Virus record (IMG/VR): IMGVR_UViG_3300012936_000038
Location: 1 to 43,279 of that record
DNA: 43,279 nucleotides
Reading direction: 5' to 3' (one strand)
Source of the DNA: a virus
The notes under the pieces: generated by a model
Databases searched by the model: none
What the model was told of the DNA's origin: nothing
What the model saw: only the letters and a program-made list of their open reading frames with translations
In this document: piece by piece, positions 1-23,755 of the stretch
How positions within the stretch are numbered: position 1 is the first letter of the stretch
Layout of the letters: each line of letters begins with the position of its first letter
Position numbers and translations under genes: made by a program

Positions 1-3000
1 CTTTCGAAGATACTCTTGGATTTGTTCTTTGGTTGCTGGGATTAAATCTGAGAATGGAACCTCAGATTCAAACATGTGATCTTGTCCGTGATGTTTGATG
101 TATGCGATCTGTTCCGCTTGGTGGGCTCTCTTTACCCTTACGGCTTTGTTGTTGGACTTACTGTGGTAAATCGCTCCGTTTCTTATTTTCTGGGCAAAAT
201 TTGGGATAAATCCTTTGTTTTTAAATGACTTATGGAATTGCCCGTGACCAAGTAATGCCATACTAATTTCATTAAAATTAAATTTTTGGCCCCCAGCTGT
301 AAAGTGTCCACCAGGATAACTGCTTATGTATCCATCTGAATCATCTGCCTGCTTGTCTTTTATTGCTGAGATATATCTTTCTACTGCAAAAGATAAATCT
401 TGTTTTTTTAAGTTGGAACCTGTTTTACTTTTGTATACTTTTCCTATAGCTTTTTCAATCGCTTTTTTGTCATGGTATCCGTTAGACAAATTAACATTAA
501 AATTAGGAATCAATCCTTTGTGTTGACCAAAATAAGGAGAACGCTTTGACCAGATATGAGTTATTTCTTGTTCATCTCTAGCTAACGATCCACCGCTCAT
601 GCCTATGCTTCTGTCTGACTCTCCAGCATTAGGGCTGAACATATCTAATGGATCTGTGCTTTGAACTTTTGGGCGAAATTTATGGAGATTTAAATAAATG
701 TCCTTTAAGGTTCCTTTGCGCATTCCCTGCTTAAAACTTTTCTTTACATTCTCTAGCCCGAATCGATCTATATATTTTTCGAGTTTTGTTTGGTCAAAGA
801 TTCTTTTATTGGGTACAGAAACTTCCTCTATATTACCCATTTCATTTGGGTCATATTCATAGCCAGGATGCATTGATTTTGCGAAATCTCTGGCCACATC
901 TTTATCTACAGTTCTGCTGACAAATCCAGATGGTTGATGACGAGGAGTAAGGTCAACTCCTTCTTGCTTCCCGAAGCCTCCTCTCATAGGTCTAGGGTAC
1001 ACGTATCCTCCGTGAAGGATTTGGTTTTCGCCCATTTCTTCATACCCTCTCATTTGCTCAATGGTTGCTGGATAAATTCCATCATTATAGCTTCCGCTAT
1101 ATGCGCCCATAGAATGAGAAATGCCTAACTTTTTAACAGCTTTTATAAAGTCAGATTTTGTTTTAGCTGCCATTATTTCATCAAATAAAAACTGCGGAGG
1201 GTTCGGGATGTCTCTCACAGCTTTTTGATATCTAGGGCTAGTACCTCGATATAAAGTTGTTGATGCAAAATTAGGTATTAATCCTTTGTATTTCGCGGGT
1301 AAAAACAAATTAGTTTCTAAAGTTTTATTTTGTAATTTCTTAAAAGAATCTATAAAAGTATCAATACTTTTAAAGCTTTGTTTATTATTACCTACTTCGC
1401 TTCTAAGAATTTTCATTCCAATTTCATCTTTATTGAAGTTTTTTTGACCTTCTATACCTCCAGATGTAAATTTAGCTTCTCCATTTGGATTAATAAAATC
1501 TAAAGGAGCCTTACCTCCTTTATGTTTTCCAATATTAATCAATGCTTCAAACCTTTCAGCTTGTTGTGTTGAATTACCTATTACGCCGTGTTGCTGAAAA
1601 TCTAATTTAGATAATGGTTTTCCTTCTTTATAAGGATACATTATTTTTGCTTGGTAGTCATATTTAAAGTCTTTAAATTTTGGGAATGCCTTTTCTATAC
1701 CTCCGAAATTTTGTATATAGTCATTCGCTTCCACTTCTGAGCTTTTCTTTTTATCAGAAGGGTCGAATGTATCTGAGAAAGCTTCTCCTCCATATCTTTT
1801 GATAGTTTTTAGTTCTCCGCTTTTTTTAAACGGGGATAAGGCGTATCCTCCTTTGTTGCGAGTAGCTTCGCTTAATAAAATGCTTCCAGTTACGTAGCCG
1901 CCCTCTTTGTGTTTCCAAAAAATGTCGCCTTTTTTATAAGGTTTTCCAATTTGTTTTACTTCTTCTTCTGGAGCCCCCTTTCTTTGAAGGGCTGATATTA
2001 ACTTATAGTATGCTTCTTTAAATTCTCCTCCTTCATCAGCCTCAGCCTCTTCTTTGAAAGCTAGGTGTAAAGATTGCCCTCCCTCTCTTTCATCTTTTCC
2101 TAACAAATGTTTTGCAATTGTGGTGGCTGACGTTCCTACATATTCTCCCATAGCCCCCTGGGTTGGCTTCACTGTTCCCTCTTCTACTCTTTTGCTTAAT
2201 TCTATATACTTTCTTTTCCAGTTCCTTAATTTTTCATCGTTCCATTGTTTTCTGGAATGATCAGATATTTCTGGTTTAACCGTTATAAAGTTTGGAACAA
2301 AGCCTTTGTTCATTCCCCAAATATCAGCATCCTCTTGACCAAAGTAAAGGTTTCCAGATTTATCTTTTCGTGTGCCTTTTATTCCTAGTTGCGAAGCTAG
2401 GTTTTGAGCTCTTTTTAAATTTTTCTCATTAAGGCCTTTGTCTTTACCGCCTTGAGATTCTAGCCATGAAGTTAATTCTCTGTCAGAAGCCATGCGTAAA
2501 CTTTTAGAGATTAAATTTGCGGCGATAAATTCTCCGCTTTTAGTTTCTCCTGAAGGAAATTCAAGACCTTTTGCTATATGATCGATTGGATAAGAAGCAT
2601 CACCTTTGTTTGTTTCAGGGTCGTGTGTAGATAAATATTTTGTGAAAGTTGATTTAGCTGTTTCTCTTATAGCTTGTTCCGCATTTAATTGTGCAGTAGT
2701 TTTTCTTTCTGCGAAATCTGTTTTTGATTCACCTTTTCTTTTTCTAGCTCCACCTCTTGTAAGCGGCCTAAAAAGAAAATCTCTTTCTATAAAAGCGATT
2801 CCTTTTGACGCTAAAGAATTAAAAGTATCATACAATGTTTCTTGCCCAGTAGGTTTCTTTTTATTTTTATCAGACGAAGTTATGATATCCAGCAGGCTAG
2901 CTTTGATTGACACGGGTTGTTCTAAATCCATCTTTCTTTCAATGTCTCTATAGTTGACCCCTTTGCCTAGAGCTTTAGCGATATCAGTTGAGTTGGCATA

Positions 3001-5004
3001 AGTTAAAAATTTACTTGGCTGCATCAATAATGTATTACCAATTTGTTGTGCAAAGTTAGGTATAAACCCTCCACTAGCATAAGGATCAAAGCCATGTTTA
3101 TCAGCAAATTTTTCTTTATACTTTTTTCCAGCTTTACTGTTTTCTGGAGGCATAATAGCTGGCTGTTTCATTCCCTCAAAATTCTTTACTTTTTCAGCGG
3201 TATTATAAATAACCTCACCCATTCCAGGAACTTTCATCTTGGCTACTCTTCCAGGGCTATAACCTCCTTCTATAGCTCCTTTTCTTTCTGTATTTTTTTC
3301 TTCGGGCAAAAGACCTGAATACCTAAAACTTCCATCTCCATCAATGTCAACTAATGTTCCTGGCCTGTTATTATAACTAAGGTCTGGAGTTATACCTCTC
3401 TTGAGAAGAGCTGGCCCTAATTTACTTGCGAGTTGTTGTTGTTTTGCAAGTGCATTTGTTTGAGCTTCTATGAGTCCCAATATGTATTGCTCCTGCGCAA
3501 CTCTGTCTCCTTCAAGTCTGTTCAAAGCTTGTGTTACCTGCACATTCGAGCCTAATACTTTAACTATAGATTCCTCGATTTGCCTGACTTTTTCTTTTTG
3601 GGTTACTATCCCTAAGACATCTTTCAATGAGCCAGAAGCAAATTTAAAAACATTAAATAGAAGTTTTGAGAAAATAGCAGCAAATGCTATTACTCCTGGA
3701 CCAGTTAAAACATTTCCAATTCCTCGAACTAACCCTTTCGCAAAGGCATTACCTTCATCTTCTCCGCCTCCCAAGGAATTTTTTAGTTCTTCAATTCTTG
3801 CCCCGAAGAAACTGACAAAATCCCCAAGTTCTGGTTTTATTGCAAGCTCTCCCATTATTCCGACAAGTTCTTTTAGTCCTGTTCCTGCTTGAGAGGCCAT
3901 TGCGGAGATACTTTTATTTAATAGTTCGTTTTTTCTGGCTGCTTCTCCAGCTGCATTAGCTGAAATTTCAGTGGCTTGTTGTTGTATTCCTTGGGCTTTT
4001 GATAAGTCAGCCAAAGCAGCCCTAAAAATATTAGCCTGAAATATTCCAGCAGCAAACTGAACGATATTCGATTGCTGACTTTGAGATAGTTCTTCAAAGC
4101 TTTTCGCTATGTTCTGCAATACTTTGTCAGCTGGAAGCACTGCTCCAGTTAATGTCCTTACGGCAACCCCCATATCTTCCAACTGCCTGATCGATTCAGG
4201 CCTCTGTATCCTTGTGAAAATAGTTTTAAGTCCATTACCAATAACAGCACCACCACGCGCAGTGGTTTGCTGCAATGAAGTTATGATTCCAACTAAGCTA
4301 TCAAGCTCAACACCTGCGTCAATAGCAACAGCACCAGCTCGCTCAAGACCATTAATTAAATCTTCAGAGCTAACTGCAAATTTTACGTCTACAGCTGCAA
4401 GCTTATCGATAATATCTGTGGTAGTAAGACCTGCTTCACCAAAAGCATTAACGGCTGCCGTTAATCCAGAAACAGCTTCAGCCGCATCTAGACTTGTGAT
4501 ACGAGTCAAAGTTAAGGCATCGTTAGTTCTTTTTAAAACTTCTGCAACACTTAAACCTTGGCGAGAAAATTCAAGAGCTGCTTCAGCGGCTACATTAAAA
4601 GATTGAGCAGTATTTTGCGCTACATCAAATAAGCCTTGTCCGAATTTTTGGATCTGTTCATTTGATGAATTTAAAACTACATTGATATCTTGAAGAGTTT
4701 TTTCAAATCTGATAGTCTCGGCGACTAAAAATTTAAAAGAATCGGTGATTGCATTGATTATTCCAACTGAAGCACCGAAAGCTATAACACGAGCATTTGA
4801 AGCTTCTAATGATTTTGTAAATTCATTAGCTGATGCAGTAATTCTACCCAAGGGCTGAGTAAAGCTTTTTCCATTAACGTTAAAGCTTATATCTTTTCCT
4901 GCAACATTGTTAACAATTTTGTTGATCTCCCTTGCAGCTCGATCCATACTACGTTTGGCTTTCGTAGTATCTACCGTTAAGTCAACATTTGCTCTTATTG
5001 CCAT
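1..5004 (-). CDS. Tail tape measure protein with extra modules, C-terminus outside window
   Basis: The reading frame is open from an ATG at 5004 to the window edge (1668 codons, no stop), so the gene is partial. An AGGAG/AAGGA ribosome site precedes the ATG. Residues about 90-330 resemble the TP901-type tape measure core, with alanine-rich helical sequence and a conserved-looking stretch TARGGAVIGNGLKTIF. A hydrophobic segment lies near residues 429-455. A tape measure sets tail length and is ejected during infection. From residue 645 the protein changes character: five G(F/L)(I/V)PNF motifs (residues 645, 901, 1241, 1497, 1598) separate globular-looking modules, including one ADP-ribosyltransferase-like and two nuclease-like modules (separate entries). 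The core assignment is secure; the roles of the modules are inferred. It has its own promoter-like motif upstream. Confidence 0.88.
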   Translation of the reverse strand, partial: MAIRANVDLTVDTTKAKRSMDRAAREINKIVNNVAGKDISFNVNGKSFTQPLGRITASANEFTKSLEASNARVIAFGASVGIINAITDSFKFLVAETIRFEKTLQDINVVLNSSNEQIQKFGQGLFDVAQNTAQSFNVAAEAALEFSRQGLSVAEVLKRTNDALTLTRITSLDAAEAVSGLTAAVNAFGEAGLTTTDIIDKLAAVDVKFAVSSEDLINGLERAGAVAIDAGVELDSLVGIITSLQQTTARGGAVIGNGLKTIFTRIQRPESIRQLEDMGVAVRTLTGAVLPADKVLQNIAKSFEELSQSQQSNIVQFAAGIFQANIFRAALADLSKAQGIQQQATEISANAAGEAARKNELLNKSISAMASQAGTGLKELVGIMGELAIKPELGDFVSFFGARIEELKNSLGGGEDEGNAFAKGLVRGIGNVLTGPGVIAFAAIFSKLLFNVFKFASGSLKDVLGIVTQKEKVRQIEESIVKVLGSNVQVTQALNRLEGDRVAQEQYILGLIEAQTNALAKQQQLASKLGPALLKRGITPDLSYNNRPGTLVDIDGDGSFRYSGLLPEEKNTERKGAIEGGYSPGRVAKMKVPGMGEVIYNTAEKVKNFEGMKQPAIMPPENSKAGKKYKEKFADKHGFDPYASGGFIPNFAQQIGNTLLMQPSKFLTYANSTDIAKALGKGVNYRDIERKMDLEQPVSIKASLLDIITSSDKNKKKPTGQETLYDTFNSLASKGIAFIERDFLFRPLTRGGARKRKGESKTDFAERKTTAQLNAEQAIRETAKSTFTKYLSTHDPETNKGDASYPIDHIAKGLEFPSGETKSGEFIAANLISKSLRMASDRELTSWLESQGGKDKGLNEKNLKRAQNLASQLGIKGTRKDKSGNLYFGQEDADIWGMNKGFVPNFITVKPEISDHSRKQWNDEKLRNWKRKYIELSKRVEEGTVKPTQGAMGEYVGTSATTIAKHLLGKDEREGGQSLHLAFKEEAEADEGGEFKEAYYKLISALQRKGAPEEEVKQIGKPYKKGDIFWKHKEGGYVTGSILLSEATRNKGGYALSPFKKSGELKTIKRYGGEAFSDTFDPSDKKKSSEVEANDYIQNFGGIEKAFPKFKDFKYDYQAKIMYPYKEGKPLSKLDFQQHGVIGNSTQQAERFEALINIGKHKGGKAPLDFINPNGEAKFTSGGIEGQKNFNKDEIGMKILRSEVGNNKQSFKSIDTFIDSFKKLQNKTLETNLFLPAKYKGLIPNFASTTLYRGTSPRYQKAVRDIPNPPQFLFDEIMAAKTKSDFIKAVKKLGISHSMGAYSGSYNDGIYPATIEQMRGYEEMGENQILHGGYVYPRPMRGGFGKQEGVDLTPRHQPSGFVSRTVDKDVARDFAKSMHPGYEYDPNEMGNIEEVSVPNKRIFDQTKLEKYIDRFGLENVKKSFKQGMRKGTLKDIYLNLHKFRPKVQSTDPLDMFSPNAGESDRSIGMSGGSLARDEQEITHIWSKRSPYFGQHKGLIPNFNVNLSNGYHDKKAIEKAIGKVYKSKTGSNLKKQDLSFAVERYISAIKDKQADDSDGYISSYPGGHFTAGGQKFNFNEISMALLGHGQFHKSFKNKGFIPNFAQKIRNGAIYHSKSNNKAVRVKRAHQAEQIAYIKHHGQDHMFESEVPFSDLIPATKEQIQEYLRK
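517..1263 (-). other. Tape measure module C, ADP-ribosyltransferase-like
   Basis: Residues about 1248-1495 lie between the third and fourth PNF motifs. They show the three parts of the R-S-E ADP-ribosyltransferase signature in order: LYRGTS (R1253), GFVSRT followed by VARDFA (S1363, T1365), and ARDEQEITHIW (E1478-x-E1480). The spacing and the A/F-rich helix after S-x-T are as in known R-S-E enzymes. Activity on NAD and any target are unknown. Other ART-fold proteins of unknown function would look the same. Confidence 0.6.
1285..2286 (-). other. Tape measure module B, PD-(D/E)XK-like
   Basis: This stretch lies between the second and third PNF motifs (residues about 907-1240). It contains APLDFINPNGEAKF, giving D1169 and E1176-x-K1178, then FTSGG and EIGMKILRSE. 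The arrangement parallels module A: an aspartate after a hydrophobic strand, then GE(T/A)K, then a K(I/S)LR helix. The two modules could therefore be diverged copies of one nuclease-like domain. The evidence is motif-level only. Confidence 0.33.
2305..3048 (-). other. Tape measure module A, PD-(D/E)XK-like
   Basis: This stretch lies between the first and second PNF motifs (residues about 653-900). It contains YPIDHIA followed by GETKSG, giving D808 and E820-x-K822. This spacing fits the PD-(D/E)XK nuclease pattern, followed by a hydrophobic-basic segment ISKSLRM. No overall family was recognised, and such short signatures occur by chance, so the nuclease reading is tentative. Confidence 0.3.
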
Positions 5005-5062: not shown

Positions 5063-6202
5063 TTAAGAAGGGTCGTATTCTGATATTACAGGCTTTATTG
5101 TTATGTTTTTATTTATGGTAAAATATACAAAATATTCTCCATATTCCTCATCATATTCTTCATCTAGATCTTGTATTTCATCTTTAATATCGTTTCCATT
5201 TTCATCTAGATATAAAAATTCATCTATCTTATATTTGGGTACTCCATTATAATCCCCATCGTATTCTACAGAATCATACCTAAAGACATATTCGTCATCA
5301 TTATCTGTATACTCACTTACGAAAAACGATGCTTCAAGTTGTTCTCCGTATGAAAAAGTATCAAAGTCTCCTAAGACAATAAACACTGTTTCTTCTTCTA
5401 CGACATCATCTTCTATTGCAAAAGGGACATCATCTGGATCGCCAAGCCCAAAGGTCAATTCTACAGCTTCAAAATCTGCGACTGCAATCATGTTATCCCT
5501 ATCAATTTTTATTGTAGTTTCAATAGAATATTTATCCGCTATATTAATACCTATCCATTCTGTGAAATTATGTGAATCCGTATTGATAGCCCTTATCGGA
5601 GCATCAGACATATAGTCTTTTAAGCCAGATAAAGTTTCATCAACTAATCCTATTGGATCTCCATTATCATAAGTCGTACTGCTTAATGTTAAATTAAATT
5701 TTATTGGTGTGAAATTAGCATTTATAGTAATTGTCTTCTCCAATAATATAGACTGAGCAGTCAAGCTCGGTTCTACAAAAGTATAATCTTCTGATGTCCA
5801 CTCCGTGAAAACATATCCATAATCCACGGTTAAATCTATATCTAGCACATTTCCAGGAAAACCTCTTAGCGGCCCTGTCACTGTTCCATGATCTGAGTTT
5901 ACTATTATTTGAAGCGTGTCATATATTATTCCTACATTAGTGGCACATAGAGTTAATCTTCCTTCGAAATCTCTCGAGTAAGCTGCGTAAGCCCATCTTC
6001 CAGGACCCTGCACTTCATCTACATATTCAGTTATTGTCAAATCTCTTGTTTCAAAAATTAATTCTTCGTCAAAAAGAAATTCACAACCTCCTAATCTTGG
6101 CGTATTTTTCCCTCTAAAAAGTAACACCGCCTCTATATTACTTGTATGCAAAGGTATGTCCCAATCGGCCAACAATAAATATTTCCAAGGTTTCTCTTCC
6201 AT
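5063..6202 (-). CDS. Adhesin-like protein with B-repeat segments (379 aa)
   Basis: The N-terminus (MEEKPWKYLLLADWDIPL...SNIEAVLLFRG) resembles that of the neighbouring 2247-aa protein (LKIQWKLPADLNNIASIVV), suggesting a shared attachment domain. Residues about 140-250 hold two or three diverged InlB-type B-repeat units with the pattern Y-x-F-x-x-W (YGYVFTEW, HNFTEW). The last 120 residues are very acidic, with many D-E-Y runs. It overlaps the end of the 2247-aa gene by one base (TAATG), so translation is probably coupled. Likely a minor tail tip or baseplate protein; no specific family was recognised. Confidence 0.6.
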   Translation of the reverse strand: MEEKPWKYLLLADWDIPLHTSNIEAVLLFRGKNTPRLGGCEFLFDEELIFETRDLTITEYVDEVQGPGRWAYAAYSRDFEGRLTLCATNVGIIYDTLQIIVNSDHGTVTGPLRGFPGNVLDIDLTVDYGYVFTEWTSEDYTFVEPSLTAQSILLEKTITINANFTPIKFNLTLSSTTYDNGDPIGLVDETLSGLKDYMSDAPIRAINTDSHNFTEWIGINIADKYSIETTIKIDRDNMIAVADFEAVELTFGLGDPDDVPFAIEDDVVEEETVFIVLGDFDTFSYGEQLEASFFVSEYTDNDDEYVFRYDSVEYDGDYNGVPKYKIDEFLYLDENGNDIKDEIQDLDEEYDEEYGEYFVYFTINKNITIKPVISEYDPS

Positions 6203-9200
6203 TATTCAGGCCCAGGTATGTCTAGTACGAAGAAAGATTCATCTGCTGATATAGCTATTTTTGTTGCAGTGCCAGATTCTCTTGTGTCGAAAACAACTGC
6301 TTTCCCAAAAAAGCTTGGCTCAGACATGTAAATTCTATTATGATAATCAAATTGCTCTGATGCAGAATTCCATTTATAAATAAAAACTGTTTTCTCACTT
6401 GGTGCAGATATAGCCAAATAGTTTCCTTCAAAAGCTATATCATAAGCAAAATCTAATCTTCCATTAGCGTTAATTTGAAAATTTGATGGTATTGTTATTG
6501 ATTGAACGTTTTCATATTCAAACCAATCATATGTTGATGAAGCATAATTTATGGTTATAGGCCTTCTGAGTAATACCTTAACTTCACCAGGCTTATCTGT
6601 TGCGTCAGAACCCACGGTTGCTCCAGAAGATCGATACCCTGCATGTCTAGAGTTACTGATAACTGCTATTGAACCGTCTGGAGATAGCTTTACTTTTTCT
6701 CCGTATTGACTCTTTGTGTTGTAGTATTCTCCATAATCTATTAATGGCTCTTCGTCTACATATAATGATGGTGAATTCCACGCTCCTCTATACTGGAAAT
6801 ATTCATTAAATGATGCTGGGTTTTTTACAGAAGATGTATCACTGGGGTCTCTTGATCCCATACCAAGCTGGACTATATTCCCGTTTTCTTTATAAACACC
6901 TATGATTTTTGTTATAGATTTACTACGATCCCAATTAGTATAGATTAAATCTGAATTAGTGGGTGTCCATACAGATGTAATAGCTACGAATATAGGATTT
7001 GTTGCAGAAGACGCATCTAATGTTGGGCTATCTCTGGACACATCAATAGATCTTCCAAATTGAGAATATGCTCCATCATTAGATACACCGCCTACATCTC
7101 TTGAACCAAGATCAAATATTATATAATTTAAACTTCCTTTTGTATGGTCTTGGTCATTATAATCATCTTCTCCATACTGTGATATAGCTGTATTATTCGC
7201 GTAAGCATTAGGGACTATATGTATTACGTTTGCATTTCCTGGCGGAGATGTGTTTGAGTAAAGTGAGGCAGGATTTGTTGTTTGCGATGGGCTATAACTC
7301 GAACCGCTACTTCTGTCGAAGTTTGTAGACGTTAAAGGAAGTCTGCCGTTTAAGCTACTTGGGCAAGAATAAGCTACAAAGTTTTTAGCAATACATATCG
7401 AATTTCCGAAAAAGGTTCTAGAGGTGTGCCTGCTAAAAGTATAGTCAATATCTGAAGCATTAGGAGTATGAATTACGTTTGTTCCTGATAGTATACCTAT
7501 ATCCCCGTCGCTATTTATATTTGAAACTGTTCCTATAGCAAGGTCGCCATATTCGGTAGATCCATAAGGTGTATAATTAGTACTATTAGAGCCATAAGTC
7601 CTAACAAGAGCTTTCATACCATCGAATGGATTTCCGCACATTACTTTTGTTCCGTCTGGCGAAACAGCTAGTCTACTTTTATAGCCTTTTATGAATTCTA
7701 TTTTTTTTTGTAAACCAGGACCAACCAAATCGAGGCCATAATTGAAGTGACTTATTCCTTCAGCCCCTTTATCATCACGATATCCAGATAAACTGTCTTC
7801 GCTGGTAAGTAAAGTCTCTATTTGATTTCCTGAGCCATCTTTATTAAAGATTCTTATTGCAGCTATAGACTCCGTATTCCCTGCAATACTATTATCAGTA
7901 GTTGTAGCGCCTGTTACAGCTCTTATTCTTGGAATAGTAGGGCGATACAAAGAGGACAGAACTACCGCTCCTCCATCTTTAGTCATTGCAAGCATATTTT
8001 TATCTATTCCTAATCCTCTATTGCTATCTGAAGATAATGTTGGAAATAATATGTTGTCATTTCCGTCTCTAGGCAGAGGTAACGCTTCTAAGACTAAACG
8101 TATTTCTGCATGGCCTCTTATGTTTACTGCTTGATTCGCTTCTTGAGTATTAAGATTTGCAGGAAGTGTACCGCTAACCAGTTCCCATCTTGTAAATTTG
8201 TATCCTTGATTGGGGGTTGCAGTAATATTTGCAATATCATCATAGTTATATGTTCCAGCTCCTGTGGCTGATCCCCAATTAGGTTCATTTATTGTGATGA
8301 TTAAATTATAAGGCACTCCAGTAAATACTGGTCTTATTTTAAGATTTCCAGTTAACCTTATTGTATCATGAGCTGAAGCGTTAAAGTCTTGCCAGTTATT
8401 AGTTGAAACTTCGTATTCCCATTTTGAGAATTGATAGTTAGGGTTTGGATTTGCTCTTAATGTTATATCTTCAAAAGCGTGGTAATTTCCATTATTAGAG
8501 CTGCCTGATGTATTTCCATTGGCTCCTTGAACAATAGTGAAAGAATAATATTTTAAGCTTAAATTTGCTCGTAAAGTTACAGTAGGAGTTGATTGAGAAT
8601 GGATGCTGGTCTCTGCCGACAAAGTAGTAGGTATGTTATTTAACCGACCTGAAACTAATGTCCAGCTGTCAAATTCTAAGTATTCTGGAACGCTGGAGCT
8701 TATACTTATAATATCTCCAAGAAAATAAGGACTAGAAGAGCTTTGATTTTTTAAATTGTGACTAGAAATAAATTTGGGGTTAACGTTTGAATCATAATCT
8801 GAAGGATATGAAGCCGTTATATTGAAAATAAAACCAGATAGAGTTCTATAAGTTAGAACTACATCGTTATTTAATAATAATGTTGCAGCGGTGGGCCATG
8901 AATTTTTATTTAAATTTGAAAAAGATGTAGAAGTATTCCCAGAAGTTATTTCCCAGCTATCAAATTTTTCGTTAGAAGGAATCGATATGGCTGGTATGGT
9001 TGCCGTATTATTTAACTCGTCATAAGTTAATACTTGTTTTGTTGTGGGTGTATTGTTATTAACTTGGTTCTTTATTGTAAGCAAGTAAGTTTCTATCGAT
9101 CTAAAGTAAAAAGAAATCTCTCCATTTGGGCTAACTGTTATATTTTGATCAGTGAAACTATTTACATTAAAAGTTGTGTTACTTGTAGTTACTTGATCTA

Positions 9201-12200
9201 TTATATAGCCTGTTTCTGATGGAAAAATTACAGAATAATTTACGGGAACGCCAGGGCTTAATTCAGTAAGATTAACGACTTCTGTATCGTGAAGATTATT
9301 ATCAAGATATATTTTTTTAGTTAAAGTAAATTTAAATAAAAATAAAGCTTTAATGGTTAGATCACCATATTTGGATAATTTGAAACCTGAGGCGTCTGTA
9401 AATGTATCTCCAGAAATTAAACCTATATCAGCACTAACAACTTCCCATTTTTGAAATACATAATTATTGTTTGGTTGCGCTTGTACTGATATTAAATCTG
9501 TTGTTTCAAAATTTTCTGTTTTAGTGTCAGCTTTTGGTCCATTATTTATTCCAACCAATCCTCTCGATGAGTCTGCTGTAACAACAAGAGCGTATTCTCT
9601 TGCATTAAAGATTGCTTCAATCACAGTATCCTCTGATATTCTAACCGTAGTACTAGAGTTATTTAAATAACCATGGCCTACGCCTGAGCCAGCTACGGCA
9701 GATCCAGAAACCACTTCCCATCGAACAAAATCGTGACCTATAACTTCTCCTATGACTGTATTTAATGTTGCTTCTATATTTGCATCTTCTGTAGCTAAAT
9801 ATCCTCCTTGGCCCGAGAAGGAAGCTATTCCTGGTATATTTGATTGAAGCGTTAGTATGAAAACTTTTTCTACAGTTACAACTACATCAAAATCTTGATT
9901 CATTGTAAAAGTTTGATTTGCTTGAGTTAAAGAATTTTGAGCAGCTCCATTATTGATAGACATACTTAAAAATCTATACCCTGGATTTATTGATGAATTT
10001 ATATCTAATATTGCGACAGAATCCTCGATATAAACGCTATTAGTAGATACGTCGTTTATGTCTGGGTAGTCTATTGTTAAATCAAGATCATATTTGTTTT
10101 CAAAAATTGCTTCTACCTCAAGATCTCCGTAGTCTGCTAGAGTGATTGTTGTATCTTTAGTAGTAGAAATCAAAGTTCCGTCTGACCTACGCCATTCTTT
10201 GAATATGTTTTTGTTCGGGTCATTAGCTTCGGCTTTTAAGGATATTGTGTCTAATGTATTATATTTACCATTAGGCGAAGTTCCTGTAATATTTCCTCTA
10301 GAAGAATCTACAGTAGCAGAAAAATTATACAAAACATAATCTAAATGAGCGGTTATAGATACGTCTCCAGAAATTCTTATCGTATTAGATTTGTTTGAAT
10401 TAACTAAGCCAGTTATCAGGCTGGCGTCAGTTGATGTATAATTGTTTAAAAACCTGTAGGTTGGTATAGCAGGATTACTATTATTTAAAGAAAGGACTAT
10501 GTCTATATCTTCTGTACTTCTAAAGAAATCATTAGCCTGCCCGTGTGAAAAACTTGCTGCTCCAGGTAAATCGATTAATAACGTAAGCTCATTACCCCTT
10601 AACGCGTGAAACTCTATAACCGCGTTTTCTGATAAAGTAATTGTTTTGGCTCCAAATACATTAGGTTGCGATATAGTTATATTTCCGCTTTGAACTTCCC
10701 ATCTGTCAAATTCATAGCCAGGAGTTATATTTAAAGGATTGACTGTTATGGAACTCGATTCGTTTTCTCTCCTTGAGTAAGTTACTTGTTTACTCACGTC
10801 TTCGACGCCATCTTGGTAATATTTAACTACCAAAGTGTAAACTGACAAGAAATAAGCCTTCAAGCTTAAACTTCCGTAATTCCCTAAAGTGAAGGTTGTT
10901 AAAGGAAAATTAGCTCCAGGACTTAAACCGTAGTCAGAGGAAACAACTTCCCATCTGTCAAATATACTGCCTCCTTTAGGAGAAGTAGATATTGTGATGC
11001 TTTCAAATACATCATAATCAGGCCCACCAGTTTTAGATACGGTTCCTTTAGAGTTGTCTTCGCTTGATACCGTTAATGTATATTTAATAGCTTCTACATT
11101 TGCTGTTATGGTTGTGTCTTCTACGATAGTCACTGCGCCAGATTTAACGCTTGGAAGACTAAGGCTTTGAGGGCTTTGCCAATTAATAAAATTGTAAGCT
11201 GGAGCAACAGTAGGATTGTTTAAGCTGACCGATATACTGATATTTTCATGACTTCCGAAAACATAGTCACCTTGGCCTGTTAAGTTGACAGCAGATGGGA
11301 TATTTGAATTTAATATCAAAGAGTATACTTCTAGCAAATATAATTTTACGATTGCATCGTTATCTAGAGTATGCGATAAGTTCTTGGTTGTATATTCTGG
11401 CTGGCTCGAAAACAAATCAATAACCCATTTTTCAAATTGATATTTTCCAGCAGGTTTGACAGTATCATAATTTAAAGAAATTTGATTGTTTACTTCGTCG
11501 TATCCATTTAACGAGCTGTTGGACAGCATACTTTCTCCGTTTACCCCAGTAGAAAAAATTCTAAGAAAAACGGTGAAAAATTTTACAAATACAGCGTGTA
11601 ATTCGGCATCGCTTAATATACTAATAGATGAATTTGCAGAAGAAATTCCAGTAACGTTTCCGCTTATTAGTTGCCATCCGTCAAATCGATATTTGGTTTT
11701 CGGCGTTGCCGTTATATCAAAAGGGTTGTTAATGCTTTCTATATTTGCAGTTATAGTATTACCAGAGGTGGATTGATCAGTTGCGTTAATTGAGATTGAA
11801 CCTCTTGCGCTTGATCCTTCTATACCATTTGGCCCCATTATCTTTAAGGCAATCTGAAATACTTTTGTAAAGAAAGCTTTTAAATTTACATTGCCACCTA
11901 TCTTTAAATCGTTGTAAGTTATAGGGTCTAAAGAGGTAAGGCCTTCTGGGACAGATTCTGGATCACCTTCTCTTATTTTTGACGCTCCATATGTTACTTG
12001 CCAATATTTAAATTTGGTTTTTTCAGATATAGGTTTTGCAACCAAAGGAATGCTGTCAAAGCATGAGTATTCTCCTTCTCCGCTTACCTCTCCTATTGTT
12101 GGGATATTGCTTGAAAGTTTTAAATCTGATAATTTTTCTTTGTGGCTGGCAACCAAAACATAATTTTTATCTGGTAGTATTTTCGTTCTCGATTCGTTTG

Positions 12201-12945
12201 GATTATAATCGGGTTGCCCATAAGGATCTGCATCTCCTTCAGCTGTATATTTGTCAAATTCATAGCAATCTTTTTTATCTTTTTGCATAGATAAAGATAT
12301 TGATTTGAGTTTTGTAGGTGATAGTTTCTTATAAACTTTTTCTCCATTTTTTAATCTGAAAAATTCTTCGTCCCCTTTAATGGTTATGTTAAATTTTTGT
12401 TTTGAACAAACTACTGTAATTTCAGTATCCTCTGTGATCGTTAAGTTTGGAGCTCCATCTATTTTTGAGCTGTTAGTTCCAGCAAATACATATACATGAT
12501 CGACGGAATAACCCTCTGAATAATCTGGCACGATTAAATCGTCTAGATTTATTTCTGAATTTTCTACAATTGTTTGTTTGTACTTTAATTGATTTCCATT
12601 TTCTTCAGCTGTGCCAAAATTTTGTACAGTAGCTTCACTTTTTTCAGTAACTATAGTTACATCAACTTTGTCGTCATATTGATATACGAAGGTTGCGCAT
12701 TTTGAACTCTCTCCTATGTGGGATATTGCAAAAGTAACATATCTATAAATACCTTTATCTGTTATTTCATCTATATAAGTATTGGAGAAAGGGAAAGTAT
12801 CGTCTTTAAATATTATGGAACCTGTATTTACCACATCTTCACAACTTTTGTTCTGACTTGGGTCTTCGGCTCTATGCACGACAATGGAAGCTATATTATT
12901 TAAATCAGCAGGTAGTTTCCATTGTATTTTTAGCTTAGCTATCAT
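6202..12945 (-). CDS. Giant repeat adhesin, about 17 B-repeats plus FG-GAP-like C-terminus (2247 aa)
   Basis: Residues 1-60 form a short N-terminal domain. From about 12262 down to 8190 there are about 17 diverged InlB-type B-repeat units, each marked by Y-x-F-x-x-W-x-(V/L)-x-S-G (for example YEFDRWEVQSG, HDFVRWEVVSG, YKFTRWELVSG), with a period of about 230-290 nt. In a few units the tryptophan is replaced (YRFLNNY, YRFLSMS, YIIDQV). Residues from about 1630 form a second region with propeller-like FG-GAP motifs (QFGRSIDVS, YGEKVKLSPDGS, FFGKAVVF). Such architecture fits a long flexible receptor-binding or adhesive tail fibre. It starts one base after the stop of the 480-aa gene. Confidence 0.75.
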   Translation of the reverse strand: MIAKLKIQWKLPADLNNIASIVVHRAEDPSQNKSCEDVVNTGSIIFKDDTFPFSNTYIDEITDKGIYRYVTFAISHIGESSKCATFVYQYDDKVDVTIVTEKSEATVQNFGTAEENGNQLKYKQTIVENSEINLDDLIVPDYSEGYSVDHVYVFAGTNSSKIDGAPNLTITEDTEITVVCSKQKFNITIKGDEEFFRLKNGEKVYKKLSPTKLKSISLSMQKDKKDCYEFDKYTAEGDADPYGQPDYNPNESRTKILPDKNYVLVASHKEKLSDLKLSSNIPTIGEVSGEGEYSCFDSIPLVAKPISEKTKFKYWQVTYGASKIREGDPESVPEGLTSLDPITYNDLKIGGNVNLKAFFTKVFQIALKIMGPNGIEGSSARGSISINATDQSTSGNTITANIESINNPFDITATPKTKYRFDGWQLISGNVTGISSANSSISILSDAELHAVFVKFFTVFLRIFSTGVNGESMLSNSSLNGYDEVNNQISLNYDTVKPAGKYQFEKWVIDLFSSQPEYTTKNLSHTLDNDAIVKLYLLEVYSLILNSNIPSAVNLTGQGDYVFGSHENISISVSLNNPTVAPAYNFINWQSPQSLSLPSVKSGAVTIVEDTTITANVEAIKYTLTVSSEDNSKGTVSKTGGPDYDVFESITISTSPKGGSIFDRWEVVSSDYGLSPGANFPLTTFTLGNYGSLSLKAYFLSVYTLVVKYYQDGVEDVSKQVTYSRRENESSSITVNPLNITPGYEFDRWEVQSGNITISQPNVFGAKTITLSENAVIEFHALRGNELTLLIDLPGAASFSHGQANDFFRSTEDIDIVLSLNNSNPAIPTYRFLNNYTSTDASLITGLVNSNKSNTIRISGDVSITAHLDYVLYNFSATVDSSRGNITGTSPNGKYNTLDTISLKAEANDPNKNIFKEWRRSDGTLISTTKDTTITLADYGDLEVEAIFENKYDLDLTIDYPDINDVSTNSVYIEDSVAILDINSSINPGYRFLSMSINNGAAQNSLTQANQTFTMNQDFDVVVTVEKVFILTLQSNIPGIASFSGQGGYLATEDANIEATLNTVIGEVIGHDFVRWEVVSGSAVAGSGVGHGYLNNSSTTVRISEDTVIEAIFNAREYALVVTADSSRGLVGINNGPKADTKTENFETTDLISVQAQPNNNYVFQKWEVVSADIGLISGDTFTDASGFKLSKYGDLTIKALFLFKFTLTKKIYLDNNLHDTEVVNLTELSPGVPVNYSVIFPSETGYIIDQVTTSNTTFNVNSFTDQNITVSPNGEISFYFRSIETYLLTIKNQVNNNTPTTKQVLTYDELNNTATIPAISIPSNEKFDSWEITSGNTSTSFSNLNKNSWPTAATLLLNNDVVLTYRTLSGFIFNITASYPSDYDSNVNPKFISSHNLKNQSSSSPYFLGDIISISSSVPEYLEFDSWTLVSGRLNNIPTTLSAETSIHSQSTPTVTLRANLSLKYYSFTIVQGANGNTSGSSNNGNYHAFEDITLRANPNPNYQFSKWEYEVSTNNWQDFNASAHDTIRLTGNLKIRPVFTGVPYNLIITINEPNWGSATGAGTYNYDDIANITATPNQGYKFTRWELVSGTLPANLNTQEANQAVNIRGHAEIRLVLEALPLPRDGNDNILFPTLSSDSNRGLGIDKNMLAMTKDGGAVVLSSLYRPTIPRIRAVTGATTTDNSIAGNTESIAAIRIFNKDGSGNQIETLLTSEDSLSGYRDDKGAEGISHFNYGLDLVGPGLQKKIEFIKGYKSRLAVSPDGTKVMCGNPFDGMKALVRTYGSNSTNYTPYGSTEYGDLAIGTVSNINSDGDIGILSGTNVIHTPNASDIDYTFSRHTSRTFFGNSICIAKNFVAYSCPSSLNGRLPLTSTNFDRSSGSSYSPSQTTNPASLYSNTSPPGNANVIHIVPNAYANNTAISQYGEDDYNDQDHTKGSLNYIIFDLGSRDVGGVSNDGAYSQFGRSIDVSRDSPTLDASSATNPIFVAITSVWTPTNSDLIYTNWDRSKSITKIIGVYKENGNIVQLGMGSRDPSDTSSVKNPASFNEYFQYRGAWNSPSLYVDEEPLIDYGEYYNTKSQYGEKVKLSPDGSIAVISNSRHAGYRSSGATVGSDATDKPGEVKVLLRRPITINYASSTYDWFEYENVQSITIPSNFQINANGRLDFAYDIAFEGNYLAISAPSEKTVFIYKWNSASEQFDYHNRIYMSEPSFFGKAVVFDTRESGTATKIAISADESFFVLDIPGPE
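8175..12272 (-). repeat. B-repeat array (about 17 units, about 85 aa each)
   Basis: Centres of the conserved Y-x-F-x-x-W core fall near 12262, 12008, 11687, 11432, 11190, 10956, 10707, 10450, 10200, 9972, 9728, 9453, 9197, 8958, 8672, 8417 and 8190. The units are strongly diverged at DNA level, so this is an old protein repeat and not a recent DNA tandem array. Confidence 0.8.
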
Positions 12946-14455: not shown

Positions 14456-15973
14456 TTACTCGCGATAACCGAACAAGTATCCATCAGCTGCGCCAGTGGT
14501 CTGGCCGCCAACTCCTGTCCAGGCTGGAGGAAATCCACTTACACCGTTGTTAGTAGCTTTGCTTCCTGCTTCTGATCCAAAGATGTATAGACCTCTAATC
14601 ATATCATCGGAACTTCCGATTTGAGTAGTAAAGGTAAGGTCAACAGATTTATTGTCTCCAATAGTGCTGCTGAAGTTTTCAGACTCAAGGCGAGCACCCT
14701 TCATGGTGTACTTCATTGCTAGGTCAGTTTGCTTGGTTACACAACCATTACAATCTGGCTTGAACAACGAAATAGAAACGTCAAATTCTTCACATTCACA
14801 AAGAAGATCAACCATGTTTCCTCTTTTAAGGTCTGAAAGAAGTGCGTTAACACTAACTGTTACAGAAAGAGGCAGATCGATAGCTTTGGAGAATCCAAAT
14901 ACTGAACCCAAGCGTTGCAATGAGGTTCTTGCCAAAGGCAATGAGATATTTGCAGATTGAATATGAGCACTTCCAATAACTGGAGTACTTAAATCTCCAG
15001 ATGTAGATTTAGAAATCAAAGATTTACCTTGAAGATCAACCACTACGTCTCCTGGGCGAAGTGCAGCGATATCATCTTCACATCCAGTATATCCACTTTT
15101 AGCAGCTGGCAGAGAGTAAAGGCCAGTACATGAGTCGTGGCATTTAGTGCGATCATTATCTGATCCCCATGCGTCACTTACTCGACTTCCATCACGCATG
15201 TTCATTGCTGGAACGTCATTACCAGTTGTTCCGAAATCACTACGGATATTCATTCCTTCAACAGTAACACTTGCAGTTGGGATACTTCCGACAGAAATAT
15301 CTACAGAATAGTCAGTGATATAACCGTTACCCAATGAGATTACGCTCTTGGTATTTTCTAAACCTTTATTAAGATCAGCATCTCCTTTTACTGCATCACG
15401 AGCTTCTGGAGTAGTAAGAATAAAGAAATTGTTCCCTGCTTGATAAAGCTCAGGCGTCAACATTCCGCTAAGAGTATTTACAGAACCGTTGGTTACGAAT
15501 TCAAGCTGTCTTTCATTAAACCCATCAAGAATATAGTATGAAAAATCAAGGTTTACAGTAGGAGACTCAACTACCACGCTATCAAGTCTTGATGCATGAC
15601 CGAACTGATTTACATCTTGTCTATTGATTGTAAAACCATAATTTGCTGATTGTACTCTTTTGAGTTGCTTAATGATAGAGCCATGATCCTTAGCATAGCT
15701 ATTTTTAGAGGCGTTTCCTTTTTCGTCGGTTGGATTCCATTCGGGCCATGCATCTCCGCATTGCCATCCAACTGCTTGGCCTTTCTTGTTTTTACCACCA
15801 ATAACTTGGTTAGCTCCAGTTGGAGGAGTCATTAACCCAAAGTTTGCTGATACGTTTCCGTGTTGATTCGTTGCAACTGTGCCATGCGCTCCAGTGAAAT
15901 GATATCCTGTTGCATCTGGGCTAATAAACAACGCTTCAGACTGATAAATTACTCTATTTCTATGTACTGCCAT
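14456..15973 (-). CDS. Major tail tube-like protein (505 aa)
   Basis: This large beta-rich protein shares its conserved blocks with the 480-aa paralogue (KRVQSANYGFTINRQDVNQ; LDGFNERQLEF; LGNGYITDYSVDISVGS). Codons are richer in G/C than in most neighbours, as expected for an abundant virion protein. A clear AGGAG ribosome site precedes the ATG, and a long conserved promoter-like element lies further upstream. The gene sits between neck genes and the tape measure, the usual place for a tube gene. A sheath-like gene was not recognised, so a siphovirus-like tail is possible. Alternative: another major tail surface protein. Confidence 0.65.
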   Translation of the reverse strand: MAVHRNRVIYQSEALFISPDATGYHFTGAHGTVATNQHGNVSANFGLMTPPTGANQVIGGKNKKGQAVGWQCGDAWPEWNPTDEKGNASKNSYAKDHGSIIKQLKRVQSANYGFTINRQDVNQFGHASRLDSVVVESPTVNLDFSYYILDGFNERQLEFVTNGSVNTLSGMLTPELYQAGNNFFILTTPEARDAVKGDADLNKGLENTKSVISLGNGYITDYSVDISVGSIPTASVTVEGMNIRSDFGTTGNDVPAMNMRDGSRVSDAWGSDNDRTKCHDSCTGLYSLPAAKSGYTGCEDDIAALRPGDVVVDLQGKSLISKSTSGDLSTPVIGSAHIQSANISLPLARTSLQRLGSVFGFSKAIDLPLSVTVSVNALLSDLKRGNMVDLLCECEEFDVSISLFKPDCNGCVTKQTDLAMKYTMKGARLESENFSSTIGDNKSVDLTFTTQIGSSDDMIRGLYIFGSEAGSKATNNGVSGFPPAWTGVGGQTTGAADGYLFGYRE

Positions 15974-21811: not shown

Positions 21812-23755
21812 ATGCAGACAATAAAGATAAGAAACCTAACTTCTGCTGAAGATAACACTTTAACAGATAATAGTTATTTAGCTTTAGCACTTAACGATAA
21901 TGATACCAAGTTAGGATCTGAGGACCCTCAAAATGTAAATCAAAGAATAACTGTAAAGACAACTATATCTCAGTTAAGAAAAGTTATTTTGCCTACAATA
22001 GGAGATTCTCCCCCTGTTTCTGAAAATGAAGAAGGTGGTATTGATGTAGGGATCGGAGATGTGATTTTAGATGAAAACGGAGATGCATTAGTCCCGCAAC
22101 CTCCAGTAGTTATAAAACAGGGTGGCAAAGACCAAATAAAGATCACTGATGACAGAATATCGCTAAAAGAAAATGTGACTATAGAAAAAACTCTCCTGGC
22201 TATTGGTGGAGTCACCACGCTTGGCCCAAGTTCTTTCAACGGAATTACAACTTTTGCTGGTTTTACTAATTTTATTGGACCTACTACTTTTAGTGATACG
22301 ACTACTTTTAACCGTGACGCTTTTTTTAATGAATTAACTAATGACCCATCTCCAACAGAGGGAAAAATTTACAGAAAGTCTGACGGTCTATATTTCAATG
22401 GTTCTAAACTTTTAACCGAAGGACAAGGAGGAAAATGGATAGACGGAGACTCTTCTGGTGATATAGTTTATAATGCAGGTAAAGTTGGTATTGGTACTAC
22501 GAGTCCTAGTGCTGAGCTTGAGATCGGAGATGGAACTGGTGGTGCTAAAGCTATAAAAATTAAATCAGGTGGAGGGACTAGTGGAGACTTGATTTTTGAT
22601 TCTGCATCTGATGAAGGTATGTTAAGATATGAGCATACAACGGATTCAATGAGGTTTCACACAAATGGATCAGAGCAAGTGCGTATAGACTCTAGCGGTA
22701 ATGTCGTTTTTGCTGGGCCAAATTCATTTAGAAGTACTAGCAATGCTGACTATAAGCTTGATGTTTCGGGATCTGGTCGATTTATAGATTGGTGTACTAG
22801 TTATCGTACTACGCATACCGACGGCAGATACGCTAATTCAGATTATTATCTTTTGTTGTTGCAATATGATACAAGGTCATATGTAAGTGGTGAACTAACA
22901 GGTTTTCGCGGAGGTAGTACTGCGCAAGCTCGTACTTTGCATACGACTTTTCAAGCTAATTCTACGAGTTATAAGGCTTCTGGCCAAACTGAAGGCATTA
23001 TGATGATGTCTAAAGGCCCTGGCATGTTCGCTAATCAAGATAGGATGAAAGGGTTTTACAGCGTAGTATATAATGGTAATAAGTATTTAGCTTTACATTT
23101 TGAGCCTGGGACTCTTTATCATGCCATGACCTGGGAATTCCAAGGTCGAATAAAACTTGAAACTTCCGAAAACGAAGCAAACTTTTTAAAAGTTATACAC
23201 ATGGATGATTTGAGTGAAATTACTGCGCAGGCTCAGTACACAACTATTAACCATGACTTTTATGCGTTAGATAAAAAAATTGGCATTGGCAATGCGGCTC
23301 CTGGTTACAAGTTGGATGTTAATGGAGACATAAACTTTACAGGTGATCTATACAAGGATGGTGTTCTTTTTGTGGGAGGAGGAGGTTCATCAAATATATC
23401 AGACGTTACTGGTTTGCAAGCTGCACTAGACAATAAACTCGATAAACCCGCAGCTAATTCAGAGCCTACTTTTGTTGATTCCGATATTAATTTAAAAACA
23501 AATATTTCCCCTATTGAATCACCAATAAAATCTCTTGAAAGTATAAGAGGTGTTAATTTTGAATGGAAAAAAGAATCTAACAAATCAGGCGAAGACCAAG
23601 GCCTTATAGCTCAAGAGGTTGAAAAGATTATTCCTAGCGCAGTTAAAAAAGGAGAAGACGGATACCTAAAGGTAGACTATACAAAACTAGTTCCTTTTTT
23701 ACTAGAGGCAGTGAAAGACTTAAGTAAAAGAGTAAAAGAATTAGAAAAGAATTAA
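21812..23755 (+). CDS. Tail fibre protein 2 with S74 intramolecular chaperone (647 aa)
   Basis: The N-terminal module matches fibre 1. Residues about 215-310 carry the common fibre signature KVGIGTTSP and ELEIGDGTGG. The middle (about 320-500) is a unique, probably receptor-binding part. The last 90 residues match the peptidase S74 or endosialidase-type chaperone: SDINLKTNI (likely self-cleavage before or near S557-D558), W in NFEWKK, GLIAQEVE, and a closing coiled coil KDLSKRVKELEKN. That domain folds the trimer and is then released. Its stop overlaps the stop of the convergent 443-aa gene. Confidence 0.85.
   Translation: MQTIKIRNLTSAEDNTLTDNSYLALALNDNDTKLGSEDPQNVNQRITVKTTISQLRKVILPTIGDSPPVSENEEGGIDVGIGDVILDENGDALVPQPPVVIKQGGKDQIKITDDRISLKENVTIEKTLLAIGGVTTLGPSSFNGITTFAGFTNFIGPTTFSDTTTFNRDAFFNELTNDPSPTEGKIYRKSDGLYFNGSKLLTEGQGGKWIDGDSSGDIVYNAGKVGIGTTSPSAELEIGDGTGGAKAIKIKSGGGTSGDLIFDSASDEGMLRYEHTTDSMRFHTNGSEQVRIDSSGNVVFAGPNSFRSTSNADYKLDVSGSGRFIDWCTSYRTTHTDGRYANSDYYLLLLQYDTRSYVSGELTGFRGGSTAQARTLHTTFQANSTSYKASGQTEGIMMMSKGPGMFANQDRMKGFYSVVYNGNKYLALHFEPGTLYHAMTWEFQGRIKLETSENEANFLKVIHMDDLSEITAQAQYTTINHDFYALDKKIGIGNAAPGYKLDVNGDINFTGDLYKDGVLFVGGGGSSNISDVTGLQAALDNKLDKPAANSEPTFVDSDINLKTNISPIESPIKSLESIRGVNFEWKKESNKSGEDQGLIAQEVEKIIPSAVKKGEDGYLKVDYTKLVPFLLEAVKDLSKRVKELEKN

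Follow-up and report, generated by a model that had tools for sequence, protein, structure and literature searches.

A phage tape measure protein that probably carries a rack of exchangeable enzyme cassettes joined at PNF motifs

The tape measure gene and its neighbours

We analyzed a stretch of viral DNA of 43,279 bases (the window). This record carries a terminase, tail-region genes and a tail-spike-like protein on the same contig as a gene for a tape measure protein (TMP). The features of the TMP gene are as follows.

1..5004, minus: TMP gene (open reading frame; 1668 aa; the 3' end lies beyond the contig)
3085..5004, minus: TMP core, residues 1-640 (Pfam and PHROG matches; 90% identical in a sister phage)
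3085..3306, minus: small C4 domain directly before motif 1 (GGYxPG..VxYNxAExVKxFxGMxQPAIMPP; recurs in related TMPs)
3052..3069, minus: motif 1, GFIPNF, residues 646-651 (the point at which DNA homology to the sister phage is lost)
2305..3051, minus: cassette 1, PD-(D/E)xK-like nuclease by active-site residues, residues 652-900
2287..2304, minus: motif 2, GFVPNF, residues 901-906
1285..2286, minus: cassette 2, residues 907-1240; by eye, an HTH-like start and a second PD-(D/E)xK-like pattern (AERFEAL..PLDFINPNGEAKFT)
1267..1284, minus: motif 3, GLIPNF, residues 1241-1246
517..1266, minus: cassette 3, R-S-E ADP-ribosyltransferase (ART)-like, residues 1247-1496 (LYRG / FVSRT..ARDFA / EQEI)
499..516, minus: motif 4, GLIPNF, residues 1497-1502
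214..498, minus: cassette 4, ~95 aa, with relatives; fourth in the window, second in L121
196..213, minus: motif 5, GFIPNF, residues 1598-1603
1..195, minus: cassette 5, a small domain of ~65 aa; fifth in the window, first in L148, third in the sister phage

The gene runs from 5004 to 1 on the minus strand and passes the contig end. The window therefore contains only part of the array and lacks the C-terminal part of the protein. In the Pfam search with the window protein, PhageMin_Tail was detected at residues 117-316 (E=1.3e-24, above the cut-off), and several PHROG tape measure families matched the first ~390 residues. No Pfam match was found past residue ~640, and in the whole protein the TMP core was the sole thing detected by Pfam and PHROGs. 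By its sequence, the open reading frame (ORF) is a phage tape measure protein with a PhageMin_Tail core, encoded among tail genes. The dN/dS of the core was 0.06. When the C-terminal 424 residues were compared with the viral contigs, no close relatives were found. In related TMPs, the array is followed by a long, mostly helical-looking C-terminal part. In that of the sister phage (L344 8936-13735, minus), some units, among them GLVEGPAGIDNVPAMLTAGEYVVP, are similar to the VaNtsE..VPNFA units beside some motifs.

Three other genes of the window are described here. Between the TMP and other tail-region genes lies a gene (6202-12945, minus) for a protein of 2247 aa that contains divergent InlB B-repeats (Flg_new_2, E=4e-30), which aligns with the sister phage at the DNA level in parts only and is probably a large adhesin or tail-fibre-like protein. 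The 647-aa protein at 21812-23755 (plus) ends in a Peptidase_S74 (endosialidase chaperone) domain and is likely a tail spike or fibre. The 505-aa protein at 14456-15973 (minus) has a sister counterpart of 775 aa; thus, a segment was seemingly inserted or lost between close relatives.

The PNF motif

The G(F/L)(I/V)PNF hexamers start at residues 646, 901, 1241, 1497 and 1598 (PNF at 649, 904, 1244, 1500 and 1601), with spacings of 255, 340, 256 and 101 residues, and these five are the only ones across the six frames of the window. When the protein was shuffled, the mean was 0.00045 motifs, and the maximum was one in 20,000 shuffles. The original prediction, which was made from this DNA alone, had described five such motifs, and this is confirmed. 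Four of its positions were exact; the first, given as residue 645, was off by one, and the spacing after it is 255, not 256.

The logo of 773 sites reads [A/S]xG(F/Y)(I/V)PN(F/Y)A. The codons of the motif vary and match the background usage, both in the window and in the 773-site set. Judged from these coding sequences, the motif is conserved at the protein level, not at the DNA level, as had been proposed from its differing codons. The motif was also considered as a DNA site, and this was ruled out because its codons follow the background usage.

For the stretch from the C4 domain through motif 1 and cassette 1 to motif 2, AlphaFold gave a model with a mean pLDDT of 78.7 and two folded domains, one of which is the C4 domain. 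The pLDDT was below 50 at residues 85-91 and from residue 342, and the motifs lie at residues 87-92 and 342-347 of the model. Module 1, which had been supposed to be globular, is thus not predicted as one continuous non-globular helix. In the model, the motif is a linker without structure that separates folded domains. Strict conservation of a hydrophobic stretch in such a linker is typical of short binding motifs, and the motif is probably bound by a putative tail or chaperone protein.

Distribution of the motif among viral tape measures

We scanned degenerate DNA patterns through a viral contig collection. The pattern for GFIPNFA was found in at least 119 stretches, and those for GFVPNFA and GYIPNFA in at least 120 each. 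Since the loci were picked by one motif, the presence of one motif per locus is by construction. Among the matches listed, 243 ORFs have two or more motifs (171 with a TMP core and 72 cut at the 5' end by the fetched stretch); several loci may share one contig, and these counts are therefore not independent samples. Twenty further ORFs, with neither a core nor a 5' cut, have a single motif each and look like chance matches. Of the 53 complete proteins (median length 2259), 50 have their first motif between residues 532 and 640. In four records of 69-138 kb, the matches to the motif pattern were all confined to a single cluster spanning 2-6 kb; the pattern reversed as a control gave 0 matches. 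The cluster of the sister phage falls within its TMP gene. The motif is thus widespread in related tape measures, and its absence from them, which would have refuted the original prediction, does not apply.

Motif pairs are present also in TMPs without large cassettes (L093), and units like VaNtsE..VPNFA lie close to the first motif in other TMPs. Therefore, we think that this TMP lineage had the motif natively and received cargo between the motif copies at a later stage. The motif may have originated as a repeat native to TMPs.

Among 50,697 records of cultured phages, no match was detected to the C0 cassette (a small recurrent domain) or to the C4-plus-cassette-1 stretch of the window, even at E=0.1. 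The window TMP and the L064 TMP matched these records in the core region only, at 22-30% identity among the matches listed. A motif scan of a genome collection gave only two real matches, in Proteobacteria and Flavobacteriales metagenome bins, which are too weak to name a host. In the Flavobacteriales bin, a motif-bearing TMP lies at L318 3320-7999, and the bin also has a terminase 42% identical to that of the window. This bin is a weak hint at Bacteroidota hosts.

Exchange of cassettes at the motif

The sister phage (L331, 137.7 kb) has a terminase 92% identical and a TMP core 90% identical to those of the window, and the window is largely syntenic with it at 67-86% nucleotide identity, mostly 78-85%. 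The sister TMP is 5036 residues long and contains ten typical motifs, and its array is unlike that of the window. DNA homology between the two TMP genes stops at window position 3051, which is the edge of motif 1. The window block 2287-3060 (motif 1 through motif 2) recurs in the sister TMP gene at 84% identity, behind other cassettes, and cassette 5 of the window is also found motif-to-motif elsewhere in the sister TMP. In another pair of TMPs (L018 and L181), the cores are 97% identical and there is one additional cassette between motifs.

To this we add the ends of DNA homology in the array region, of which there were 846 in 433 ordered TMP pairs. Seventy percent of them lay within 15 nt of a motif centre (random positions, 8%) and 86% within 30 nt (random positions, 15%); since the TMP pairs overlap, these figures describe the size of the effect and do not amount to a formal p-value. 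At the protein level, 76% of homology ends lay within 10 residues of a motif, compared with 15.5% expected. Because the motif is common to both sides, alignments run through it; the exchange is placed at the motif, not at the recombining base.

On sequence comparison, these results show that the inter-motif segments behave as cassettes. From one phage to another they are swapped, inserted, deleted and placed in a different order, and the junctions lie at the motif. That the motif is the exact junction of cassette exchange was not foreseen in the original prediction. With a motif at both ends of every cassette, exchanges would stay in frame and a short shared sequence would be supplied. Recent exchange with near base-level junctions is visible in these TMPs. 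A 2023 survey of phage protein mosaicism had tape measure signals and confirmed no genuine recent case (PMC10684548).

Cassettes of the window and of the family

Cassette 1: D157, E169 and K171 (cassette numbering) are invariant in 10 relatives. In the AlphaFold model, the order of elements around D/ExK is compatible with a PD-(D/E)xK core (alpha-beta-beta-beta-alpha); Foldseek gave no PDB match. The dN/dS was 0.22.

Cassette 2: No relative was clustered at the thresholds used; by eye, L179 and L121 are similarly laid out.

Cassette 3: The ART series R, S-x-S/T and ExE-(V/I) was detected in this order in the window and eight relatives, with L171 having no first E, and the signature was not confirmed in the L332 fragment. 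The cassette is 80% identical in L179, with a dN/dS of 0.13. The AlphaFold model of the ART was poor (pLDDT 49.5), and a fold search from it gave no match. Cassettes 1 and 3, which were those tested, are thus under purifying selection.

The modules had been described as globular and enzyme-like. This stands for module 1 (the pLDDT 78.7 stretch with invariant D and ExK) and, at the motif level, for module 3 (R-S-E). In module 2, the HTH plus nuclease is seen by eye only, and modules 4 and 5 have relatives and no assigned function. The broader proposal, a chain of separate enzyme-like modules behind a normal TMP core and joined by a protein-conserved motif, is borne out.

In a census of 255 TMPs among the matches listed, we counted the TMPs that have nuclease-family (129), P-loop (25), HAD-like (19), ART (11), kinase-like (9, in two sub-families of 5 and 4), staphylococcal-nuclease (6) and GNAT-like (6) cassettes. 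In the same TMPs, again among the matches listed, small recurrent domains were counted as C0 (175), C4 (94) and C3 (45); these most frequent small cassettes have no enzymatic pattern. The staphylococcal-nuclease assignment is firm by a sequence match to a PDB thermonuclease (5.5e-10), and the P-loop cassette has a clear ATP-binding loop pattern. In 20 nuclease cassettes with ~19% mean column identity, GxxFE, D and K are the only invariant columns. The PD-(D/E)xK label rests on such active-site patterns and the ART label on the R-S-E series, and motifs are the main basis for calling other cassettes kinase-like, HAD-like or GNAT-like. PDB searches with the cassette 1, ART and nuclease-1 profiles gave no credible match, and the kinase-like profile reached protein kinases only at E~1. 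A Pfam scan of 148 cassettes gave few families, with one HATPase match, and PADLOC gave nothing of note. Two single cassettes are described for their own sake: a 570-aa cassette at L024 5042-6751 (minus) looks like a GHKL (HATPase) ATPase, and one at L003 3242-3832 (minus) has FHEASHLAY, an HExxH-like pattern, and may be a metallopeptidase carried within a TMP.

Interpretation

We consider it probable (about 0.68) that a phage tape measure has been turned into a rack of enzyme cassettes, namely a polyvalent effector array in which the PNF linkers are the cassette junctions. Besides its role as tail ruler, the protein probably serves as a delivery rack whose enzymes act against the host cell. 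From TMP biology, the enzyme classes and the precedents, we infer on good grounds that the cassettes are delivered with the DNA, as the original prediction suggested. The TMP would travel inside the tail and leave it before the genome, which would bring the cassettes into the host envelope or cytoplasm together with the TMP. They may act in the first minutes of infection by cutting nucleic acid and by ADP-ribosylating or phosphorylating host or defence factors; host nucleic acid, transcription and defence proteins would be likely targets. The motif would act as a flexible linker and would also be bound by a putative partner that is itself conserved, either the tail tube or a TMP chaperone. A tail lumen of ~4 nm may be too narrow for several folded domains in each TMP copy, and partial unfolding in the tail tube would be the simplest answer. 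We give an even chance to a more specific version, in which environmental phages of a class not described before use the TMP as an exchangeable magazine of host-directed enzymes, with GFIPNFA as tail-bound socket and junction; each lineage would reload the magazine by cassette exchange, much as in polymorphic toxin systems, and the enzymes would be ejected before the genome.

The original prediction considered a possible release of the modules by cutting at PNF, and nothing points to a protease site. As a full alternative, the PNF motifs would be proteolytic sites, and the TMP a polyprotein cut into separate effectors during assembly or after entry. We regard this as unlikely. Some phages process TMPs, metallopeptidases are thought to process polyvalent proteins (PMC5512222), and a hydrophobic motif strictly conserved in unstructured linkers would suit cleavage; however, a binding motif accounts equally well for this conservation. 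Furthermore, no conserved protease was linked to the motif in the data examined, and motifs are present in L093, a TMP without large cassettes. We know of no protease specificity that fits the PNF motif, which also counts against cleavage. Intein and FlhB-type sites have features that are absent from the motif; therefore, self-cleavage was set aside.

Still less probable is that the cassettes are structural, as folded spacers or decoration that tune the length or stiffness of the tail, with enzyme-like sequences co-opted or left as relics. They do sit in the ruler protein, the most frequent ones (C0, C3 and C4) have no catalytic pattern, and the fold searches with cassette 1 and the ART gave no enzyme match. 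However, the active-site pattern is all that is invariant in the divergent nuclease cassettes, the catalytic series is kept in the ART, kinase-like and staphylococcal-nuclease cassettes, and unrelated enzyme classes recur, which would not be needed in mere spacers. Fast swapping of spacers that differ greatly in size would also upset the tail length.

Least probable of all is that the cassettes are selfish nuclease inserts, which spread between TMP genes by cutting motif-coding DNA like in-frame homing elements with the other domains as passengers: nuclease-family cassettes are the commonest (129 of 255 TMPs among the matches listed) and exchange is precise at the motif, but motif codons that vary like the background leave no fixed DNA target, cassettes without a nuclease pattern move likewise, and no intein or intron signature was seen.

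Heads, MuF/portal fusions and giant polyvalent proteins are already known to carry effectors that the virion delivers. If the delivery rack proposed here is true, a tail ruler carrying exchangeable enzyme arrays is a new vehicle. It would be a common one (at least 119, 120 and 120 stretches in the three motif scans), and no cultured phage matches the tested cassettes. Two questions become testable: how a ruler that holds a varying number of folded domains still sets the tail length, and what, besides DNA, a phage injects in the first seconds. The cassettes would also offer nucleases and protein-modifying enzymes that lack annotation and whose targets are presumably host or defence proteins.

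Comparison with known systems

No earlier description of the motif or of enzyme-carrying tape measures was found in the open-licence literature, and the passages found in jumbo-phage and polyvalent-protein papers describe no enzyme-bearing tape measures. In lambda, the TMP adjoins inner-membrane proteins during injection (PMC13190303). TMPs with peptidoglycan hydrolase domains, such as YomI of SPbeta, have a homologous TMP core and an enzyme domain in the TMP. In contrast to their one cell-wall enzyme in a fixed place, the TMPs described here have several exchangeable enzymes of intracellular type, lined up and joined by the same kind of junction.

Sle1 is a TMP-related effector packed in a contractile injection system (PMC13277306). 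Sle1-type proteins of the actinobacterial systems resemble our TMPs in the TMP-related carrier, the variable exchangeable domain and the tail-like particle (PMC13277306). However, they belong to a bacterial nanomachine and have a single variable C-terminal domain and a partner, Sle2, whereas here phages carry several internal cassettes between motifs. These cassettes lie between the core and the long C-terminal part, not at the C-terminus.

MuF polymorphic toxins are phage virion proteins with exchangeable toxin-like enzyme parts, as here. In the MuF toxins of temperate phages, the variable part is the end of a head protein (PMC5576092), whereas here internal cassettes lie in a tail protein. 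The window TMP had no match to the MuF domain, and PhageMin_Tail was its only Pfam match. T4 Alt and related ARTs share the R-S-E signature, and Alt is a virion-associated first-line weapon (PMC9503650). Alt is a separate protein packed in the head, whereas here the ART is one cassette of a tape measure.

Polyvalent proteins of phages and conjugative elements are large late-gene products in which many disparate enzyme domains (ART, kinase, GNAT and nucleic-acid-acting) are combined (Iyer et al. 2017, PMC5512222). By the inference of those authors, they enter the host with the DNA, as T4 Alt also does (PMC5512222, PMC9503650). As there described, they resemble our TMPs in having several disparate enzyme domains per polypeptide (some classes here at the motif level only) and recombining architectures. 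The carriers named there are head, MuF and portal proteins and stand-alone giant proteins, whereas here the carrier is a tape measure with a repeated GFIPNFA junction. The term "tape measure" was not found in PMC5512222, where the mentions of tails concern other things. In eight records that contain ART cassettes, a search for ART-PolyVal (PF18760) was negative at E<=10, and the Pfam scan of 148 cassettes gave none of the other polyvalent families. The cassette-bearing tape measure works like a polyvalent protein and a polymorphic toxin magazine, but by these tests it falls outside the described families.
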